Source of the DNA: Sulfobacillus thermosulfidooxidans DSM 9293
GTDB taxonomy: Bacteria; Bacillota; Sulfobacillia; Sulfobacillales; Sulfobacillaceae
Direction: 5' to 3'
Length of the DNA stretch: 64,000 nucleotides
Assembly (NCBI RefSeq): GCF_900176145.1
Contig: NZ_FWWY01000001.1
Location: 253,517-317,516, forward strand
A program made the translations under genes and the position numbers. This document shows positions 23,679 to 40,902 of the stretch, in pieces. The number at the start of each line of letters is the position of its first letter. Position 1 is the stretch's first letter. Under the pieces are notes generated by a model, which saw only the letters and a list, made by a program, of their open reading frames with translations, was not told the DNA's origin and did not search any database.

Positions 23679-24797
23679 CTAATCGCTTATTGTCGCATGG
23701 CCATGCTTGGGATCAAATGGATTCAATAATACAGCCGACAAATCATCCACAACAACAAACGTCAGCGGTACATCCGAGACAAACGCCGCCGGTTCGACGC
23801 GACGGGTAATCATTAGGGGAAAGAAACGCCATGTCGACAATGGGGTTGGAACTTTGTGCTGAACTAAGTTCACAGCGGCGTGAGGATTCTCTCGGACCGC
23901 GGCCGCCTTGGCCATTAACTTCTCAATATAATGGTCGTCGTCCCAGAACTTCCTTACCCGTCGTTGGATGAGCCTTGGAGAAAAAGCCATCGAGACATCT
24001 TTTACTTCACACACCCAAATGCGCTCGTGCCTCTCATCGATGATTAGGAGGTCGATCTCTCCATGCAACAGCAACCCGAAGGTTCTCGCCTGTTCTGGTG
24101 TAATGTTGGGGCGGTAAGGAAGACAGATCGTGTCGACAATATCCGCAACCTCGCGTTCCAAACTGCGATTGCTAACCTGACGGAAACGATTCAGGGCGTT
24201 TGTTAGAGAATCCGGCGTCTCCCGTGCCGGTGCAGGCAGGCGACCCGCGCCCACGTATTCTGCGTAAATCTCTTGCGCACTGCGGATCAACCATGGAATT
24301 ACTAACAGTTCGTCATCCATACGGATCAGCGGCCGAACCGCCACTCGATACGTCCGGCGTTCGATCTCCCACGCTGCGCACGACTCACCCCGTAGCCTCT
24401 CTGCGTCCACGCTTAAGCGATCGAGGGCCGCCTCAATTTCCATCGCCGGCACACCGGACCACTTAGCCGCTTCGTCGCGGAGTGCTCCCCATTGCACTCG
24501 CACAACAGCAGTGCCGCCATCCTTATTCCACGACACCGCGGTGCTCAGCACCGCAGCCAATCCATCGACTCCGGTCCCCCATGCCAACCGCATCTGTTCA
24601 TCGACCTGGAACCATGACTGCGGGAGACTGGGAATCGAACGCGAAGATTGAAACGCCACCGTGGCCCAACGATGATGAGGAAATCCCTCGGGAATTTCGT
24701 CTTCACCCGTGAACGCTTCGCGCGTTCGCAATTGATCCGCCTTTTCCATTTGCCAATATGCTCTCCAGTCGATGGTGCGTCCAGACCCGGATTCCAC
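23679..24797 (-). CDS. PD-(D/E)XK nuclease-like protein, in frame with the upstream large gene
   Basis: This 372-residue frame starts at a GTG (24797) that has no ribosome binding site. The C-terminal part shows a restriction-endonuclease-like core. HGEIDLLIIDERHERIWVCE followed by VKD gives Asp249 and the Glu264-Val-Lys266 pair expected for PD-(D/E)XK; Glu214/Glu216 upstream could be the first acidic residue. DNA cleavage is therefore likely. The N-terminal 200 residues are unrecognised. The frame is the same as that of the preceding ~846-aa gene and lies only seven codons after its TAG, so it may be the C-terminal part of one large protein interrupted by a stop, or a coupled second gene. 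Confidence 0.7.
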   Translation of the reverse strand: MESGSGRTIDWRAYWQMEKADQLRTREAFTGEDEIPEGFPHHRWATVAFQSSRSIPSLPQSWFQVDEQMRLAWGTGVDGLAAVLSTAVSWNKDGGTAVVRVQWGALRDEAAKWSGVPAMEIEAALDRLSVDAERLRGESCAAWEIERRTYRVAVRPLIRMDDELLVIPWLIRSAQEIYAEYVGAGRLPAPARETPDSLTNALNRFRQVSNRSLEREVADIVDTICLPYRPNITPEQARTFGLLLHGEIDLLIIDERHERIWVCEVKDVSMAFSPRLIQRRVRKFWDDDHYIEKLMAKAAAVRENPHAAVNLVQHKVPTPLSTWRFFPLMITRRVEPAAFVSDVPLTFVVVDDLSAVLLNPFDPKHGHATISD

Positions 24798-24818
24798 TGG
24801 CGCAACATTCAGGGTGCG

Positions 24819-27359
24819 CTACGGTGTTACGTTAATTATCCATTCCGTCAACCCCTGATCGGCACTAGATAAAATGGTGCCAATCTTCAAAAACCAATTA
24901 AATACTGCACGACCATATCCCACGTCAAATCGATCCGGACGCATGACACCACATGTTTCACGCGCAACGAGGTATTCTAGCAAGACCTCAAGAGGCCGTG
25001 TGATTTCCGGCCCTTGGGGATTCCTGAGCGCCTCCTGACGCCATACCTCACTCCACGGAGCTCTCAGGGCCGCGCCTAATTGCTGACGCGCTCGCATGCG
25101 CTCCCCATGAGCAGCGTTGAGATATTTCGCGACGACGTCGATGGCGTACATGGACCAGTTAGTCAGGAGAGCTTGAATCCGACTTGCTAAAATTGTCAAT
25201 ACCATTCGAGCAATGTCGACCATAGCTGCACCATGATATGTTCCGGACTGAATGCCCGCTATTGCTAGCTCTTGAGCCAACATGTGATTCACGGCGGAAA
25301 TCATGTCAGGCAGACTCTCTACGCCTTGAGACGAACTGTTCAGGGTACTTTCTTGAAGACCCATCATCGCAATCGGCGGCGACTCGTTCCATGCTTCGAG
25401 AAATGGCTGTTGAACAATATTGAGGTCGACTGACGAGATCAAATCTAGTCCCGCAAATAGTGCCTGGCCGACAGCCGCATGGGCTGTTTTCGGGTTCCGA
25501 ATTAATTCCTTAATCCATGAAGAACTCAGTCGCAGGACAATCATAGACCTCGGCTGATTTCTGTCCACTGCGACGCCTACAGAACCAGGATGCTGGGTTG
25601 CCTGCTCATCATCAACAAATTCCACTACAATGATAACGGGATCCGTACTCGATTCCCTGAGTATCTGCGCAATGCGTGAATGACGAATACATGTTGCGAG
25701 AATTCCTTCGCTGACGCCAGTACAAAATGCCGGATCTAAATCCTCCCAACCCACCAGTTTGTGCTGGGGGACTACGACGACGATCGATGGGTTTGTGGCG
25801 ATCATAACAGGGGTTCCCAACGGATCTACCAGCGTCGCCCGTTCCGGATCATCGAGGTGCGTCCATGCCCATTCACGGATCGGTGGGAACAATGCCTTAT
25901 AGAGGGTCTCTTCGATAGGATCCCATGCTACTGCGCGCATCCACTGCTGATGGTCAGTGGGACTGACTAAGAGCGCCGTTTCCCAATAAACAGGATTCAA
26001 AACCCCAAACTCCAGCCAATGATGCCACGCGTCAAGAAGGCAAACGGCCATAAATCCCGCCTTCTTCTCATGGTCCGTGATCGCCATCAAGAACTCCCAA
26101 AGGAGGTCGTAATTTCGTCCCAACTGTTGGACATCCCGCACAATAGCGACAAAGTCGTACACGGACGCTTGAATAATCGAGCCATTCCTCCACCGTGACA
26201 ACCTAAACGGCCCACCATACAAGAGGATGCGATAGACAGAAGCCGAGGGATCAAGGCGGCCATCCTCAATGGCTGAGGCGTCAAATTCCATCAACCCGTC
26301 GGTGACGGCGTGGACGGCCCTACTCAATGCATCGGGATCCAAGGCGGCAACGATGCCCATGGCGAAGACGTGCCGAGTTCCGGGAGCGACCACAGTAACA
26401 ACAGCGCCGTCGTGATCGCACACGGGCATGTTGAGCACACGGCGGACGAATTCTTCGGTCTCAATTTGAATGCTACGTTGCGCCTCGCGTACGTCGCGCA
26501 CCTCCAAGGCCAAATGTGCCATCGCAATGCCCACCGCATTTAGCACTTCTGCAGCAGGAATTGGGATTACGCCGAGACAACTGTCCACCGCGAGTACGGG
26601 ACCCATCGACTGGGCCATGGGTTGCATGTCAAACCGCACCGAGGTCGCCTTCTGGCTAACCCATCCCCATGCCACCGCAGCGCGTTCGGGGTATGCACAA
26701 CGATTGAGCCACTCGGTGGGAGCCGCTTGATGAATTACCCGGACCGTTTCGATCTCCTTAATCCCTGGACGTTGTATCCTGTCATGCGTCGCATTCCGAA
26801 GCGGCCAAACCTTTTCCAGTTGCGTTAGACGCCAATCACAGTACGACAACGCCGCCTCCAGGAGGTCAGTCGCGGCAAAACCCTTCGTCTCCAAGATAAA
26901 GCTATCGATCGCATGAGCCGTCGTTTGAACGACGCCGATTAGTGCCACCGCATTGGTCAGATTGCCCGGATGGATCCGATAACGACCACCGTTCACTGCC
27001 ACGTGAACCGGCAACCGCGGATCAGCCGGTTCATAATCCTCGAAGACTCGGAGTTGGGGTATCGCCTTATGCACCGTAGACAGCAACACAGGCAAGTCCC
27101 CAAACGACGACGATACCTGGCCGTGCGGCGGGTTTATCATGGCACGATACCATAGGACTAAGAGAGCGGGTCGCTGTACCCCAAAGTCCGGTGAATCATA
27201 GGCCGCCGACAACATCGCACCCAGCGATGCAGCGTCGAATACTCGAAATGCATCATCAATAGATGACCAGTGCACTGAATCACTTTGAATATGGGGAAAT
27301 AATCCTTGAAACTTCCGGCCTCCGCTCGTCGTATAGTGCCGTGTAAACCGCATTTTCAT
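24819..27359 (-). CDS. large protein of unknown function, partner of the nuclease-like gene
   Basis: About 846 residues from the ATG at 27359, chosen because GAAGGG lies nine bases upstream; the frame is open to 27446 from a TTG. It has no membrane segment, and I see neither a Walker motif nor another enzymatic motif. It is helix-rich with recurrent Trp-containing blocks (YGGPFRLSRWRNGSIIQASV near the middle). It ends at TAG 24819, followed in the same frame by seven sense codons and the nuclease-like frame. Size, isolation and neighbouring defence genes suggest the sensor or scaffold half of a two-part (or stop-interrupted single) anti-invader protein. That role is inference. A shard of a related gene lies at about 4.56-4.67 kb. 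Confidence 0.65.
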   Translation of the reverse strand: MKMRFTRHYTTSGGRKFQGLFPHIQSDSVHWSSIDDAFRVFDAASLGAMLSAAYDSPDFGVQRPALLVLWYRAMINPPHGQVSSSFGDLPVLLSTVHKAIPQLRVFEDYEPADPRLPVHVAVNGGRYRIHPGNLTNAVALIGVVQTTAHAIDSFILETKGFAATDLLEAALSYCDWRLTQLEKVWPLRNATHDRIQRPGIKEIETVRVIHQAAPTEWLNRCAYPERAAVAWGWVSQKATSVRFDMQPMAQSMGPVLAVDSCLGVIPIPAAEVLNAVGIAMAHLALEVRDVREAQRSIQIETEEFVRRVLNMPVCDHDGAVVTVVAPGTRHVFAMGIVAALDPDALSRAVHAVTDGLMEFDASAIEDGRLDPSASVYRILLYGGPFRLSRWRNGSIIQASVYDFVAIVRDVQQLGRNYDLLWEFLMAITDHEKKAGFMAVCLLDAWHHWLEFGVLNPVYWETALLVSPTDHQQWMRAVAWDPIEETLYKALFPPIREWAWTHLDDPERATLVDPLGTPVMIATNPSIVVVVPQHKLVGWEDLDPAFCTGVSEGILATCIRHSRIAQILRESSTDPVIIVVEFVDDEQATQHPGSVGVAVDRNQPRSMIVLRLSSSWIKELIRNPKTAHAAVGQALFAGLDLISSVDLNIVQQPFLEAWNESPPIAMMGLQESTLNSSSQGVESLPDMISAVNHMLAQELAIAGIQSGTYHGAAMVDIARMVLTILASRIQALLTNWSMYAIDVVAKYLNAAHGERMRARQQLGAALRAPWSEVWRQEALRNPQGPEITRPLEVLLEYLVARETCGVMRPDRFDVGYGRAVFNWFLKIGTILSSADQGLTEWIINVTP

Positions 27360-27736: not shown

Positions 27737-28381
27737 TTAACTGAGTAACGCTAGCTTGGCTTTAATGTCCTTCGGAATGTCCTCTCTATCTATAAAGAAA
27801 ATTGCTGGCACTGTTTCAGTTTCCAAAACCAATGAAATAATTACAGCTTCGGGCAGGCCCTCCCGTGCGGCAATACTACGACGAACTAGAACATCCTTGT
27901 CCTCGCTTAACATTTTCACTACGTCCTCACGCAAGTCGGGTCGCTCGGCAATACTACGACGAACAGACGTAGCCCAATCCGCGGCCAGCTTATCCACCCA
28001 TTCCTCGGGTAAATTAGACCGTGCCGCAATACGACTACGAACAGATGAAGCCTTATCCTCAGCCAACTTATAGACCAAATCCTCGGGTAAATTAGACCGT
28101 TGTGCAATAACCTGACGAACAGATTCATCCCAATCCGCGGCCAACTTACGGACCAAACCTTCGGGTAAATTCAACCGCGCCGCAATACTATGACGAACAC
28201 ATGGATCGCTGTCACAAGCCAACTTCCAAACCAAAAAGCCAGGAAGCCAAGGATTTTTCGCTAAAGTTTCGCGAACATTCCAACTTGAATCCCCAAGAAG
28301 ATGGAACAATACACCAAGACCTAATCGTTCTTTTTTGGCAACAATACATCGAATCTCAATAGTTTTATCACGTGTGAACAT
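27737..28381 (-). CDS. leucine-rich repeat variant (LRV/HEAT-like) protein, main part
   Basis: The 214-residue frame consists of about eight repeats of 24 residues with the pattern NLPEDLVYKLAEDKASSVRS and IAAR, the signature of LRV-type repeats, which stack as helices into a curved binding surface. It has no catalytic domain or membrane segment, so it is probably a protein-binding scaffold. Its ATG at 28381 has no ribosome binding site and lies inside the end of another LRV frame (28368-28583). Repeat phase runs smoothly across the junction if the reading frame shifts by one base, so this is probably the 3' part of one gene broken, or expressed, by a +1 frameshift. Confidence 0.65.
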   Translation of the reverse strand: MFTRDKTIEIRCIVAKKERLGLGVLFHLLGDSSWNVRETLAKNPWLPGFLVWKLACDSDPCVRHSIAARLNLPEGLVRKLAADWDESVRQVIAQRSNLPEDLVYKLAEDKASSVRSRIAARSNLPEEWVDKLAADWATSVRRSIAERPDLREDVVKMLSEDKDVLVRRSIAAREGLPEAVIISLVLETETVPAIFFIDREDIPKDIKAKLALLS

Positions 28382-29721: not shown

Positions 29722-30303
29722 ATGCTCATCGGGTATGCGCGCGTCTCAACCCCGGATCAAGCGCTCGCGGTTCAAGAAGACGCCCTAGTGCAGGCAGGGT
29801 GTGAAAAACTCTTTCGGGACGTGCAATCGGGCCGCGACACGAATCGTCCCGGCCTGCAAGCGGCGCTGGACTATGCCCGTTCGGGCGATGTGCTCGTCGT
29901 GTGGAAACTGGATCGGCTCGGGCGATCCATGAGTCATCTCATTGCGCTCGTAGAGGATTTGCGCAAACGGGAGATCGGCTTGCGTAGCTTGCAGGAACGG
30001 ATGGATACCACCACGGCGGAAGGACAACTTATCTTTCATCTGTTTGCGGCTCTGGCCGAGTTTGAACGCGGATTGATTCGCGAACGCACTATGGCGGGAT
30101 TAGCGTCCGCGCGGGCCCGAGGGCGTTTGGGCGGACGGCCCCGGCTTCTCACGGACGATCAGATTCGCATGGCGACCGAAATGATCCGCACAGGCCACAT
30201 GACAATGGTTGACGTCGCCCGGGCATTGCATGTGTCCCGTCAGACGGTCTATCGGGCGGTGAAAGCTATGCAGAATGCCGAGGAAGCGCAAAATAATCGC
30301 TGA
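29722..30303 (+). CDS. serine recombinase (resolvase/invertase family)
   Basis: The 193-residue protein is full length for a small serine recombinase. It opens with LIGYARVSTPDQALAVQEDA, containing the nucleophilic Ser, followed by the DVLVVWKLDRLGRSMSHLI block with the catalytic Arg residues. LIFHLFAALAEFERGLIRER is the E-helix region. The C-terminus has a helix-turn-helix (TMVDVARALHVSRQTVYRAV). It cuts and rejoins DNA through a phosphoserine intermediate, to resolve cointegrates or invert segments. AAAGGATG precedes the start at a short distance. No transposase is adjacent, so it is either a Tn3-type remnant or a standalone invertase of this island. Confidence 0.92.
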   Translation: MLIGYARVSTPDQALAVQEDALVQAGCEKLFRDVQSGRDTNRPGLQAALDYARSGDVLVVWKLDRLGRSMSHLIALVEDLRKREIGLRSLQERMDTTTAEGQLIFHLFAALAEFERGLIRERTMAGLASARARGRLGGRPRLLTDDQIRMATEMIRTGHMTMVDVARALHVSRQTVYRAVKAMQNAEEAQNNR

Positions 30304-33272: not shown

Positions 33273-36257
33273 TTACGTCTGATTGGGTGGATCATCGCAA
33301 CAATTGATGATTTGACCGATTTTATCCAGATGGTCGAACCAGTGTTCTTGATACTCTATTGGCGCACGATTGGCATCCTCCGTGTAAAGCAACAGATGTA
33401 CACACACGACGAGATCCTTGTAAATGAAGACATCAGGTTCTCTTTCCCCGTCCCGGAAGAGATCTCGGAATCCATCTACCTTGTATTGATAATCGGCCTG
33501 CCGCATTCCCTTGGGATCGACAAAAACAATGGCATACCTATCACCTTTTTGCAGCCAGAAGACGAAGTCGGGTAGGAATCGTCGGATACGGTTGCTTTGC
33601 GGATCATAATACGGGATGTAGACTCCATCGAGGTTCTCGTCGATCTTACTAAAAGCCCACCAATCTAGATCAGCGAAGGCATTATCGGATTTCTTAAGAT
33701 ACTCCTCTAGATCCCGAAGAAAGGCCACTTCGCTAGGATGTCGAATCGTATGGAGGATCCAATCAATACGCTCGCTCTCCGAGACAAGCAAGGGCAGGTA
33801 ATAGTGACGAGCTATCTGCTTGATATGAATCATCTGGCCATTGTGACTAAGCGTTTCATCACTGCGGATTGCCGAATAGTCGTGTAACGCCTCCGCAAAG
33901 CTAATTTGTCCAGCGTCGAACCGGGCCTGGAGTTCCGCTATCCGGCGAGGTTCTTCGATCACTCGGCTAATTTTCATGTTCAGTTCAGAAACATCTTCTA
34001 AGAAGACCTTGATATGCCGGAAATGGTTGATTTCGTCCTCCACAGGCTTGAGCCTATCGACTTCTTGTGGAATGACCCTGAAATAGGCCAATAGGCGAGG
34101 AAGCAGGATGTCTAGCCGTCCATAGCGGCGCCCCGAATGAGTATTGAAATACTCTGGAGGATTGGCCAGACACCGGGTCAGGATGGTAACATCCGACGGT
34201 AAAACACTGTAGTGACAAATTAAGACACGTGGGTCATCAAGGTGGGCCACATATTGGCAAAGTAAGGTCAGTTCGTCTTTCGTGATCTCAAATTTGCGGG
34301 GCTTGCGCCCCTCCAATACGGTGTGATCGACTTCTCGGTAGACAGGAATGAGAAGAGGTCGTCCATCCACAGCCTCATGGTTCACCGCTAGTGCAATTTC
34401 GTGTTCGGCGATTTGGTTCCGTTCGTGATCCAACTCTTGCATGACGGTTTGGAGGGCACGGCGATTAGTACCGAAGATGCAAAGGGTCTCCAGTATGGCG
34501 GATGGCCCACGCACTGCATGAAAAGTGTTTTCATCTATGTCTTTAGCGTTGTAGAGCACTCGTAAACGCCGACGATAGCCAGGCAATGGCTCAATACGCA
34601 CTCCTCGTCCGATTGACTGTAGAACGAATTTTTTTGCGTCACCTCCCGCGCCGATGTTGATATAGGTGATCACATTGGGACGATTAGAGTCCCAACCTTC
34701 ATAGAAGGCCCGCGATCCCATCAGGATGTTAATGACCGAATCGTTCGCGTTCAAGCGATTGAAGAACTTATCGTCCTGGTAACTTTCGATGATCTCATAG
34801 CCGTCCAGCTCCTCCTTTAACCACTCGGAGATGTTACCAATCTTGATCAGGGCAAAGGGCTGACTAGCGCTTTTGAGCTTGAAGGCCATCTCTTGGGAAT
34901 TGGTCGGATGCAAGAGCACATCAATCTTTCCAGGCGCAGTCGCATTGTAAACCAGACGAAGCAACTCGGCTTGTGTGAGGGATTCGAACAACCGTTGATC
35001 GAATTGAAAGCGGTCATTCTCAAAGAGCCAGTCCTGACCCTCCATCAGTTCACACCGTAGTTCCTCATGAGCCTGTTGCCACACCGCCTGATCGATATTC
35101 CCTTGACCAATACGCTCAAGCTCACGGAAGAAGAGTTTGAGATCGGCATCGTCTGTATTGACGGAATGAGCCAGCGTCAGCATAAGCGGCCGATGGTAGG
35201 CCGACAATTCGGATGGTAGTGATTCCTGTGCTTTGCGCGCATAAGCTAGCATGAGTAGAGCCTTGAGAACGACCCGCTGTTTCTCCGCTCCCGTGTAGTC
35301 TTCCGTGTCCCGAAAGGCACGATTTTCCTGCTGAAGGATCGTGATGTGCTTGCCGTAGCCGGTCCGAATAAATTCCGCAAGGTTGAAATTGAAGACCGTG
35401 GTGAGCACGTCACGCAGATCGGTGAAGGTGGCCGAGAAATTGAACAAGAAGCCATGACGGGTGAGGATGCTGTAGATGTGCTGACGTTTGGAGTCCTCTC
35501 GGTCTCCCTTGTGTGCCTCATCCAACAACACGTACCAGTGACCGCCATTCTCGTAATTGCGGTAATCAATGATGCGTTCTTTTTGTTCGTCGCTAAGGTT
35601 GTCCGCACGGTAGAAGAAAACGGTCATCTCCCTCCCGCCGATGATCGGCAAGAGGCTATGTTCGCGATCGGGATAGGCCTTGAGGCTTTCTAGGACGATG
35701 CGGAAGTCTGCGCGGCTGGCGTTGAATTCGGCTACATGGTCTTGGAGTTGTTTCATTAGATCGTCACGAGCGGTGAGGACCAAGATGGGATACGCTGGGA
35801 TCTCGTTCCGACGCATAAGGCGCCACAAAAGTTCGATCAGCTTGATAAGCACGAGACTCTTCCCACTGCCTGTGGCCATCCAAAAGCTCATCCGGTTGAT
35901 GAACGGCCAATAAGGAATCCGGTCGCCTTCGCTGGGGTAGTATCGTTTCAGTAGAGCACGCACATCCGGCTTCTGCCTCTGAAGAGAGATGCTTAGGTCC
36001 TCCGCCAAGCCATTGTCATGGTACCACTGCCAAAAGCGCGCCTTGCGTTCTTCGTTGGTGGCACGGGACTCCCCGGACTTCAAATCGCGCACGTCTCCGT
36101 AATACTTCCATAGAGCACGGAGGGCAAACTGCAGCGCTTCCTGTTGGTAGTCCCACAAGCGCATGGTAGGGGAAAACGTGGCCAGGTCGTAATCTTGCCA
36201 GGCTGGGGGGAGATCGAAAAAGGAGAGATCGGTTAGAATGTCCTGCAGTGTGCGCAT
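33273..36257 (-). CDS. type III restriction enzyme, Res subunit (helicase-nuclease)
   Basis: The 994-residue protein has the order expected for Res. It opens with a TMRLWDYQQEALQFAL Q-motif-like start, then the Walker A motif MATGSGKS (about 127-134), motif Ia (ILVLTARDDLMKQL) and the DEAH box in YVLLDEAHKGDRE (246-249). SATFTD follows, and RGVRIEPLPGYRRRLRVL is motif VI. The C-terminal PD-(D/E)XK domain has PDFVFWL (896) and VFVDPKG (lysine 916). It translocates from an unmodified recognition site and cuts DNA with the Mod subunit. GGGGGGAG for its start lies within the last codons of mod, four bases upstream, so the pair is translated together. Confidence 0.93.
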   Translation of the reverse strand: MRTLQDILTDLSFFDLPPAWQDYDLATFSPTMRLWDYQQEALQFALRALWKYYGDVRDLKSGESRATNEERKARFWQWYHDNGLAEDLSISLQRQKPDVRALLKRYYPSEGDRIPYWPFINRMSFWMATGSGKSLVLIKLIELLWRLMRRNEIPAYPILVLTARDDLMKQLQDHVAEFNASRADFRIVLESLKAYPDREHSLLPIIGGREMTVFFYRADNLSDEQKERIIDYRNYENGGHWYVLLDEAHKGDREDSKRQHIYSILTRHGFLFNFSATFTDLRDVLTTVFNFNLAEFIRTGYGKHITILQQENRAFRDTEDYTGAEKQRVVLKALLMLAYARKAQESLPSELSAYHRPLMLTLAHSVNTDDADLKLFFRELERIGQGNIDQAVWQQAHEELRCELMEGQDWLFENDRFQFDQRLFESLTQAELLRLVYNATAPGKIDVLLHPTNSQEMAFKLKSASQPFALIKIGNISEWLKEELDGYEIIESYQDDKFFNRLNANDSVINILMGSRAFYEGWDSNRPNVITYINIGAGGDAKKFVLQSIGRGVRIEPLPGYRRRLRVLYNAKDIDENTFHAVRGPSAILETLCIFGTNRRALQTVMQELDHERNQIAEHEIALAVNHEAVDGRPLLIPVYREVDHTVLEGRKPRKFEITKDELTLLCQYVAHLDDPRVLICHYSVLPSDVTILTRCLANPPEYFNTHSGRRYGRLDILLPRLLAYFRVIPQEVDRLKPVEDEINHFRHIKVFLEDVSELNMKISRVIEEPRRIAELQARFDAGQISFAEALHDYSAIRSDETLSHNGQMIHIKQIARHYYLPLLVSESERIDWILHTIRHPSEVAFLRDLEEYLKKSDNAFADLDWWAFSKIDENLDGVYIPYYDPQSNRIRRFLPDFVFWLQKGDRYAIVFVDPKGMRQADYQYKVDGFRDLFRDGEREPDVFIYKDLVVCVHLLLYTEDANRAPIEYQEHWFDHLDKIGQIINCCDDPPNQT

Positions 36258-36261
36258 ATGA

Positions 36262-38919
36262 CTACTCCCCCCACCAAATTAGCGGTTTAACGAATTGCCA
36301 GGGGGGATTCTGCAAGTCTATACTGGTACCGTCTTCGAACTCAACCACACCCGCCTTTGTGGGATCCTCATCTAATGGATGGATGCGTCGAATCCACTTC
36401 CCCGTCAGACACGAGAGCGTCTCGGCCAAGTCCACGTCAGGATAAAGTTTGGAAAGGTCTACACGGATTTCGTCGTTTGCTGGATTCATCTCCATAATTC
36501 GGTCGCCCGTTTCCGCGTTGTCCAGCATCTTGGAGTCTCGTAAGAAGACATACTGAGTGTAGGGGTCCTGAAAAAAGAGAGGCACATCGTCATCCCCATA
36601 GCGGGCTTTGCGCAGGACGTCTTCGTACTGCTCCACGCGAAAATACTTGAAGAAGTGACTGATGCCCTTGCCGCCATCTTGAGCCTTGCCATCTTTCCAC
36701 TGGTCCGAGAAGACCACCTTTTTGATGCGCGGGAGAAGGGCCGTGTGAAAGTAGTCGGCCATCTCTATTAGGATGTACTTGCGCTGGCCGCCATCCTCCC
36801 GATTCAGGTTGATGACAGCGTGGGCGGTGGTGCCGGAGCCGGCAAAGAAGTCGAGAACAAGCCCGGTGCCTTTCTGAAGCAACTCAGAGTGCTGAAGGGT
36901 TTCTTCCATAAGGCCGATTGATTTAGGATATTTGAACTCCTCAGCGATACGCTCGCCGAGGATCTCCTTAAGAACTTTTGTCCCGTATTCACTAGCATCA
37001 AAATGGCTACCATACCACACAGTTCGTGCCATTTGAAGTTCTTTAGACAAATAAATTTGTACTCCTTTGGATGTAATTACCGCCTCTAGCTTGTCAGCCA
37101 CTGTTTCAATAGATTGTCTAGCATAGCGCCATTTGCGTTCTTTACCATTTGAATCTATAGGCCAAACGTAGATAACGTCATTTTTCTCTTCGTTTGCTGC
37201 CGGTGGATGGAAATCATCCGGTGGTATATCTCCAAATCCGATAATCTTATTACCTTTCACAAGAATAGGATAAAAACAGTTAGCGGCATCTTCCCTATGG
37301 GATTCACTCCCTGAATCACGAAGATTCCTAAAATCGGAGGTTTCTCTTGGACGGTCACTAATGTATTTGCGCTCATTATCGGGGTATAGAAAGTAAAGAT
37401 ACTCATGCACAACAGAAAAATTTTTACTTTGCTGCCCCCTTTGGTTATGCACTACAGTCACGAAGCTCTTCTCCCAACCATTGAACACTAGTTCCAGTAG
37501 TTGGTTTAGTTTCGCAGTTTCTACATCATCGATTGAAATGCAATATATTGCTTGTGAACCCAACCAATTCCTGCTTACAACCAGTCGGTTTTCCATCAGC
37601 GTTAACCACGAAGCGTGCTTGTAGTGATTCACATAAGCGATCTCGCTGTACTGAGTGTTGTATGGTGGATCAATATAGTTAAAATCTACCCGCCCCCGAA
37701 ACTTCGGAAGCATCGTGTTCAGCGCTTGGTAGTTTTCGCTGTGCACAAGCCATCCGTCCAGCTCCTGGTCTAGGTGGTTGAAGAGCGCCAGAATGAGTCC
37801 TTCCAGATCTGGGAAGTGCTTGGTATCTATGGGTAAATACTGATAGCGCTCGTGAAGATGCTTGCCCTTAAGTTCCTCCAACCACACCTCCTTCGGCGAA
37901 AAGTCCTCCCCAACCATGCCCAATTCCTGCCACTCTCGTACCTGAGACTCCATGCCGGGGTGGATGAGAAGACGTTCCAGCACTGCTACTCCCCTGTCCT
38001 GTGCCGCGATGCGGTCCAGGGTTATCACGTAGTGGCTGCCGAGCACAAACTTGGGCTTGTTCCAGATGCGGACCAGCTCGTCCTCAAACTGAGCTATAAA
38101 GTCGATGATTTTGTAGGCGATCTCCTTGAGAATCTGCAGCTGCCGAACGCGCTGTTCCGTCCAAACGGTGCCCTGACGCTGTTCGGGCTCGAAGACGTAT
38201 TGATATAGCCACAGATTAAACTGATCGCGCAGGAACTGGCGCGCGTTTTTGTTGATGAAGTAGTCCACCTCGCTTTGACGCTCAAAGACACGAAACGCCC
38301 GCTTTAAGATCTCTGCTGATGGTATGGCGGCGGTGTATTGGTTTAGATGCAGGGCATTCTTGATCGCGCGGCGAACACCATCAATATTCGTCTGCCGACC
38401 TCGTTCTGAGTAGGTCACCGTAAACACAAGCGTGGCATCGTCGCGCCGTTCCTTGAAGTCGTATACGAGCGTGCGTTTTTCATTGGACCTTTTGTTCTCT
38501 AAAGAAGAAACGTCAAAGAAGAACTTAAACCCATCAATTTCTACTACCATGCTACGAAAAAGGCGATCCGTCTTCACGTAGTAGAGCATGTGCGTCTTCC
38601 AAAACAGGGTCACGTCCCGTTCGTCCGTATAGACCTGCTCGTAGACGTGTTCATGCGGTGGAGTAAACCGGAAATAGATCGACCCCGACTCCGAGAAGTA
38701 ACGACGGAAGAAGGTGTACAAGCGGTCAAAAAACTCTTCTCGAAACTCGGGGAAGCGTTCCAAAGCCCGGTTGATATCCTCCTGAAGACGGGGGAAAACT
38801 CCTCTCTCATAGTAAAGCGATTTGATGTGCATAAGATTGACAAAACCCGACTCCCCTTCAACTTGCTCGCCAATAAAGACATTCCGCAAAGCATCAAAAA
38901 ACTGGGTTTCCTTGCTCAT
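36262..38919 (-). CDS. type III DNA methyltransferase, Mod subunit
   Basis: The 885-residue protein carries DPPYNT (417-422, motif IV) followed much later by LVLDFFAGSGTTAHAVINL (motif I, FAGSGT 692-697). This beta-class order is typical of Mod subunits that make N6-methyladenine. It provides site recognition for the complex with Res. The ~390 residues before the catalytic part are longer than in EcoP1/EcoP15I Mod and strand/helix mixed, without a motif that I recognise. GAGGAAAGG precedes the ATG. All catalytic motifs look intact and the frame is unbroken, so the system is likely active. It is divergent from the ApeA-like gene to the right. Confidence 0.93.
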   Translation of the reverse strand: MSKETQFFDALRNVFIGEQVEGESGFVNLMHIKSLYYERGVFPRLQEDINRALERFPEFREEFFDRLYTFFRRYFSESGSIYFRFTPPHEHVYEQVYTDERDVTLFWKTHMLYYVKTDRLFRSMVVEIDGFKFFFDVSSLENKRSNEKRTLVYDFKERRDDATLVFTVTYSERGRQTNIDGVRRAIKNALHLNQYTAAIPSAEILKRAFRVFERQSEVDYFINKNARQFLRDQFNLWLYQYVFEPEQRQGTVWTEQRVRQLQILKEIAYKIIDFIAQFEDELVRIWNKPKFVLGSHYVITLDRIAAQDRGVAVLERLLIHPGMESQVREWQELGMVGEDFSPKEVWLEELKGKHLHERYQYLPIDTKHFPDLEGLILALFNHLDQELDGWLVHSENYQALNTMLPKFRGRVDFNYIDPPYNTQYSEIAYVNHYKHASWLTLMENRLVVSRNWLGSQAIYCISIDDVETAKLNQLLELVFNGWEKSFVTVVHNQRGQQSKNFSVVHEYLYFLYPDNERKYISDRPRETSDFRNLRDSGSESHREDAANCFYPILVKGNKIIGFGDIPPDDFHPPAANEEKNDVIYVWPIDSNGKERKWRYARQSIETVADKLEAVITSKGVQIYLSKELQMARTVWYGSHFDASEYGTKVLKEILGERIAEEFKYPKSIGLMEETLQHSELLQKGTGLVLDFFAGSGTTAHAVINLNREDGGQRKYILIEMADYFHTALLPRIKKVVFSDQWKDGKAQDGGKGISHFFKYFRVEQYEDVLRKARYGDDDVPLFFQDPYTQYVFLRDSKMLDNAETGDRIMEMNPANDEIRVDLSKLYPDVDLAETLSCLTGKWIRRIHPLDEDPTKAGVVEFEDGTSIDLQNPPWQFVKPLIWWGE

Positions 38920-39573: not shown

Positions 39574-40902
39574 ATGAATTCAATTATCGACCGAACTCTA
39601 ATAAATGATTTCGAGATTTCCGGATTATGGTGGATGCCTACGAATCCTAAGATAAAATGGTTTGGCACAGTCATCTTTAAGCACGATGCCATAATTAGAA
39701 CAGAATTATGGGCAGATCATGACTTGTGTGATAAATTCGACGTTTTACATGGTCTCAGCCAAAACGGTGAACGGATCACGCTATTTGATTTGACGTATCC
39801 AAACAAACACACCGGATTTAGTCAACAAGACATCATTATCTCCGCTAGTTATGCCACTAAGTATGTCGTAATTGGAGATCATATATCGTCCGATATTGTA
39901 TTTAACGTTATTTCTGTCCACTATACTTATGTTGAGCAATGGATTCGACAACCTATTTCCCCATCGTCATCATTGGCTAATATTCTTAGCATTAACTGCG
40001 GTTATAGTTCAACACTTGGCGCCCACATCGAAATTTGCCGCACCCAATCAATATCAACCAGTTTAACCACATGGACAAAAATGCTGGAGTGGACGATCCA
40101 GTTCTCTTTCGATCAGGGTCATAAGTACGACGAGCTGTTACAAACAGTTTTTGATATGGCTAATTTGCTGACGGTTTTGTTTGGTCTCGCAGTTTATCCT
40201 GTATATGTTGAAATTAAGTTGAAAAATGCACAGTCTCTAACCGTATATTCCTCGACGATACCCAAAAAGATTTTAGATGATGTACATCCTAGTTCTTTTG
40301 TCGTTCCGTTTTGTGATTTCATGGCTTGTGCATCGACTATTGTTCCAACGTGGTTTGATAATCTCAACGTCTATCGACCTGTCATCGGCTTATACACAGC
40401 AACCCTTTTCGGATCACAATTCTCTGAGTTTAATTTTTTGGCGATAATACAAGCGCTAGAAGGTTATCATCGGCGAAAATACCCCGAGAAGAAGTATATG
40501 GACGATGATGCTTACACACGTGTTATAGCCTCGTGGTTATCACAACTTCCCGTCTCACTTAAACAACCTCACAAGGATAGTCTTAAGACAAGGATCAAGT
40601 ATGGAAATGAATACTCCCTACGCACACGGTTCAAGAAATTATTTACTATCATAACCCAATCGGAAACAGAAGCTATTGTTTCAAACTACGGTGAAACAAG
40701 GTTTATCGAAAAAGTTATTGACACACGCAACTATTTGACCCATTATACCCAGGAACTTACCGTAAGGGCCGCTCAAGGCAAGGAATTGATCCACTTAACA
40801 AAACGTTTACGCGTGTTCCTCCTCTTGTTAATACTTAAGGACTTGAACATAGTCCTTTCACCGGAACACTTTACTAAGGATTTGAAATGGCAGCTTGATT
40901 AA
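39574..40902 (+). CDS. ApeA-like anti-phage HEPN protein
   Basis: The 442-residue protein starts at ATG 39574, with AAAGGA eight bases upstream. The N-terminal part opens with FEISGLWWMPTNPKIKWFGT, matching the ApeA N-terminal domain pattern (G-x-WW). The C-terminal half has FLAIIQALEGYHRRKYP and the HEPN RNase motif R-x4-H (R385-NYLT-H390) within IDTRNYLTHYTQEL. ApeA proteins cleave RNA on phage infection and abort growth; the RNase is normally held inactive. It is AT-rich compared with neighbours, a sign of transfer, and sits next to the type III restriction pair. The family call rests on motif recognition; the trigger is unknown. Confidence 0.82.
   Translation: MNSIIDRTLINDFEISGLWWMPTNPKIKWFGTVIFKHDAIIRTELWADHDLCDKFDVLHGLSQNGERITLFDLTYPNKHTGFSQQDIIISASYATKYVVIGDHISSDIVFNVISVHYTYVEQWIRQPISPSSSLANILSINCGYSSTLGAHIEICRTQSISTSLTTWTKMLEWTIQFSFDQGHKYDELLQTVFDMANLLTVLFGLAVYPVYVEIKLKNAQSLTVYSSTIPKKILDDVHPSSFVVPFCDFMACASTIVPTWFDNLNVYRPVIGLYTATLFGSQFSEFNFLAIIQALEGYHRRKYPEKKYMDDDAYTRVIASWLSQLPVSLKQPHKDSLKTRIKYGNEYSLRTRFKKLFTIITQSETEAIVSNYGETRFIEKVIDTRNYLTHYTQELTVRAAQGKELIHLTKRLRVFLLLLILKDLNIVLSPEHFTKDLKWQLD

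Follow-up and report, generated by a model that had tools for sequence, protein, structure and literature searches.

The locus considered here raises three linked questions: whether two open reading frames that lie in the same frame on the minus strand, separated by a single TAG, belong to one gene or to two, which defense protein, if any, they resemble, and what the stop codon between them signifies. In the window, by which we mean the whole 64,000-nucleotide stretch of DNA that was analyzed, a frame of 846 codons starts at the ATG at 27359 and is closed by the TAG at 24821-24819, beyond which the same frame remains open for 379 sense codons until the stop at 23679. Seven sense codons (RTLNVAP) directly follow the TAG, and a GTG at 24797 then opens a frame of 372 codons that also ends at 23679. 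A preliminary description of the sequence had reported this same-frame pair of 846, 7, and 372 codons, and its coordinates are all confirmed here (Table 1). In the family alignment, the position of the TAG falls within a variable linker that precedes the nuclease domain.

Table 1. Positions in the window of the Upx-like gene, its motifs and candidate restart sites, and nearby defense genes.
Feature	Position	Strand	Remarks
N-terminal half, 846 codons and TAG	24819..27359	-	Large and mostly helical, with a degenerate restriction-endonuclease-like fold inside (predicted); matches Upx 28-902
In-frame TAG	24819..24821	-	Variable linker between the halves; missing in all 37 site-spanning relatives
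C-terminal half, 379 sense codons, then stop	23679..24818	-	Helical region and PD-(D/E)XK nuclease; matches Upx 890-1272
GEID motif, catalytic acid	24051..24062	-	Invariant across the family: G, E, and D
E-V-K motif, catalytic E and K	24000..24008	-	Both residues invariant across the family
Helix glutamate ahead of the nuclease core	24156..24158	-	Invariant in the family alignment
First in-frame GTG after the TAG	24795..24797	-	Without a Shine-Dalgarno-like sequence
Alternative restart, GGAGAG 24766-24761 and in-frame ATG 24749	24747..24766	-	Near the first helix of the C-terminal half
Type III restriction-modification pair, Res 33273-36257 and Mod 36262-38919	33273..38919	-	Island context, outside the module
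ApeA-like HEPN protein	39574..40902	+	PADLOC PDC-S58 and Cas13-ApeA models; island context, outside the module

A search for relatives through 84,980 species genomes yielded 42 loci. Altogether, 37 of the relatives examined extend through the TAG position (35 complete copies, together with L019 and L049, both of which end at contig edges beyond the site), and every one of the 37 is unbroken there and encodes a single polypeptide, with a length of about 1,190-1,300 residues in the complete relatives. Separate genes for the two halves were found in none of the 37. The earlier proposal that the two frames read together as one protein is thus upheld to the extent that they belong to one protein family, fused in all site-spanning relatives. 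The relatives come from Actinomycetota, including Streptomyces megaplasmids that carry both halves as one gene, and from bins that may be of acid-site origin. A genome of the same class as the window (G135, locus L003) also holds both halves as one gene, and locus L017 appears to be the same sequence in full length. The closest relatives, from Actinomycetes and Bacillota bins, share 41-46% identity with the window gene in the nuclease half and 32-34% in the N-terminal half, and the isolate names indicate that these bins may derive from acid-site samples. This level of identity in the translation downstream of the TAG, together with the fact that none of 20,000 mononucleotide shuffles of the second half remained open, demonstrates that the 379-codon open frame is not a product of chance. 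Within the class to which the window belongs, the gene is present in 2 of 154 genomes (G135 and the window genome itself) and in none of seven genomes of the same genus, and it is therefore an accessory gene. A search of viral contigs and phage records returned no relatives.

Scans of both halves against Pfam, NCBIfam, and PADLOC gave nothing meaningful, and the assignment of the protein draws on structure prediction and on profiles built from the relatives. AlphaFold2 produced models of high quality for the N-terminal half (pLDDT 85, pTM 0.86) and the C-terminal half (pLDDT 90, pTM 0.85). The latter model contains the core fold of the PD-(D/E)XK superfamily along with its catalytic E...D...E-x-K residues, so that structure prediction bears out the nuclease fold that had been proposed from the sequence alone. 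The catalytic positions, contributed by the helix glutamate, the GEID motif, and the E-x-K motif (CEVK at 24011-24000 in the window gene), are invariant across the family alignment, and all are present in the window. Known nucleases of the PD-(D/E)XK type, including Can2/Card1/Cdn1, R.BspD6I, and FokI-type enzymes, share the core fold with the last ~170 residues of the C-terminal half (Z about 7-10), but in each case the match is confined to the nuclease core and the partner domains are different. The PADLOC candidate defense protein HEC-02B is weakly matched at the nuclease core by a few family members (best E 5e-4), but only ~60 residues are covered and the architecture differs. Residues 145-452 of the N-terminal model also match a nuclease, in this case the nuclease domain of Nt.BspD6I (Z 9.9), and because the aligned family shows no E-x-K in this region, the model suggests that the N-terminal half contains a second restriction-endonuclease-like fold that is degenerate.

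The only solved structure that both halves match significantly is that of Upx, a single-gene anti-phage system that has been placed under nucleic acid degradation (PMC10855318) and for which a search of the available literature found no account of the mechanism. Upx is represented by the PADLOC model PDLC02221 and PDB entry 9WUF, 'Cryo-EM structure of Upx'. Profiles built from the relatives each retrieved one significant PDB chain, 9WUF, for both the N-terminal half (E 1.4e-5) and the C-terminal half (E 9.3e-6), and Foldseek searches with the two models likewise returned 9WUF as the only match below 0.001 (E 2e-17 and E 9.5e-9, respectively). In VIA-align superpositions, the N-terminal half aligned with Upx residues 28-902 (Z 17.9, rmsd 5.6, 769 residues) and the C-terminal half with residues 890-1272 (Z 12.8, rmsd 6.5, 279 residues). 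The two frames of the window thus map consecutively onto one known protein, and the halves are colinear with the 9WUF fold over its full length. Homology is also evident at the level of profiles. With a set of six Upx-family sequences (from Salmonella, Sinorhizobium, Bosea, Deinococcus, and two genomes from within the window's own phylum), hhalign matched the window family at E 1.5e-32 over 1,073 columns, and with the three sequences closest to Salmonella Upx, it did so at E 4.9e-17 over 586 columns. The Sinorhizobium plasmid copy of Upx (L063, 3055-5666) carries an annotation of two overlapping frames and appears broken.

The resemblance to Upx therefore extends over the whole length of both halves, in structure and in profile, and includes an identical domain order in a single protein (~1,270 residues in Upx), a common G[DE][IV]D...E-x-K core at matching columns, and a single-gene, defense-island setting. 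The family conforms to Upx in encoding one polypeptide of about 1,200-1,300 residues that has no partner gene, whereas the reading frame of the window copy is broken by the TAG. The branch also differs from Upx in several respects. Identity in the structure alignments is ~10-17%, the window family has E-A/V-K where Upx has E-C-K, and in a tree with the six Upx sequences, the window family forms a separate clade (support 0.993) rather than falling inside the Upx clade. The PADLOC Upx model gave no match to the window gene at cut-offs up to E 1 and none anywhere in its genome at cut-offs up to E 10, and one relative was matched at E 0.074. On the basis of these sequence comparisons, the window family is best described as a divergent, uncatalogued, Upx-like branch and not as plain Upx. 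The preliminary description had held that the pair could not be assigned to any named system; since Upx is the one solved structure with a significant match to either half, that claim gives way to one of a divergent relative of a described defense protein.

The surroundings of the gene had also been described as a defense island, and this description holds: about 6-13 kb off, on one side of the Upx-like gene, lie the Res and Mod genes of a type III restriction-modification system together with the gene for an ApeA-like HEPN protein. Mod matches its PADLOC model strongly (7e-209), and Res matches its model over part of its length only. Between these genes and the Upx-like gene lie a resolvase and a HEAT/LRV-repeat protein. 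The former is a serine resolvase/invertase beside the island (29722-30303), and the latter is a small protein (27737-28381) with no PADLOC match, whose gene lies a short way upstream of the Upx-like gene in the same orientation. Among 101 neighbors of the relatives, PADLOC matches included the MADS, PDC-M54A, ZorD, DpdE, and HamB models, and Pfam matches included Cas proteins, Mrr_cat, and integrases; we claim no enrichment from either result. At one of these loci (L018, 11160-14909), a protein of 1,250 residues with no PADLOC match is encoded convergently with the Upx-like gene. No neighbor is common to more than four of the relatives' loci, and the Upx-like protein therefore appears to act alone.

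With respect to the TAG itself, the sequence on either side of it provides information on how long it may have been present. Downstream, 43 of 45 positions conserved in the family are retained, and there is no further stop or frameshift. Upstream, 32 of 40 are retained, and the eight losses exceed those in close relatives of the N-terminal half. The absence of decay after the TAG implies that the stop is recent, that it is an error, or that it is tolerated via re-initiation. Breaks occur in other copies as well, at scattered places. Given in the coordinates of the nearest relative, L010 carries two frameshifts (near residues 356 and 971), and L029, L036, L047, and L050 are broken near residues 970, 437, 1,191, and 1,180, respectively, while L013 is cut at a point adjoining an IS3. 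Some of these loci are in draft genomes where sequencing errors are possible, and the pattern is more readily explained by repeated loss, or by draft errors, than by recoding.

The reading that we favor is that the locus is one gene of the divergent Upx branch, recently interrupted by an amber stop, and that it is most likely a disabled defense gene. The preliminary description had left two readings in competition, recent inactivation and regulated expression of the nuclease by readthrough or re-initiation. Of these, the former is the most likely, because the latter has no precedent in the family, no associated RNA structure, and no strong restart site, and because other copies carry scattered breaks. 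The undecayed sequence after the stop weighs against inactivation and implies either that the stop arose very recently or that the second half continues to be produced. A still-functional Upx-like nuclease, made as two polypeptides or through a leaky stop that parts the sensor from the nuclease and keeps output low or conditional, is on the whole rather unlikely. The version in which ribosomes re-initiate after the TAG, at GTG 24797 or ATG 24749, and the two polypeptides reassemble is unlikely. It would be consistent with the lack of relaxed constraint in the C-terminal half and with a stop located in a variable linker between well-folded halves, with restart codons about 21 and 69 nt downstream. 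However, the GTG has no Shine-Dalgarno-like sequence, confirming what had been noted earlier about its lack of a ribosome binding site, and the GGAGAG that precedes the ATG is a weak candidate with a long spacing of 11-13 nt. Moreover, no relative is split at this point, and there is no sign of the second frame evolving independently.

Programmed amber readthrough, by which a small amount of full-length nuclease would be produced and self-damage curbed, is very improbable. The frame is kept on both sides of the TAG and the catalytic core is intact, which favors this reading, but the stop is conserved in none of the 37 relatives and RNA folding around it is unremarkable (z -0.49). TAG is also an ordinary stop here, terminating 4 of 29 genes in the window, and a search for pyrrolysine decoding found no PylS above the cut-off, the only match being a sub-cut-off one of the kind seen in most control genomes. 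That the stop is a sequencing or assembly error and the true gene is uninterrupted is distinctly unlikely; no relative is interrupted at this site and the frame is otherwise undamaged, but the genome is near finished (2 contigs, 99.9% complete), and retention of the frame means that a homopolymer indel is not the cause. As for two unrelated genes that share a frame by accident, only the stop itself speaks for this, while the 37 fused relatives and the colinearity of both halves on one solved protein make it scarcely credible.

If the recent-inactivation reading is correct, the intact protein would be about 1,225 residues long and would probably act in an Upx-like manner without a partner gene. 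The large N-terminal region may sense or engage invading nucleic acid, after which the C-terminal PD-(D/E)XK domain would cleave DNA, presumably as part of an anti-phage activity. In the window copy, the stop would yield only the 846-residue, nuclease-free N-terminal half, and as this product lacks the nuclease, this copy most likely has little or no activity. The interest of the interrupted copy lies chiefly in its value as an example of defense-gene turnover. Upx is a little-studied single-protein defense system, and a separate branch of it can now be seen that is missed by current defense catalogs and is frequent in Actinomycetota, including on linear megaplasmids, and, to judge from isolate names, in acid environments. 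The family alignment indicates which nuclease residues to test and points to the putative degenerate nuclease-like fold in the N-terminal half, and a profile derived from the family alignments would detect the Upx-like branch.
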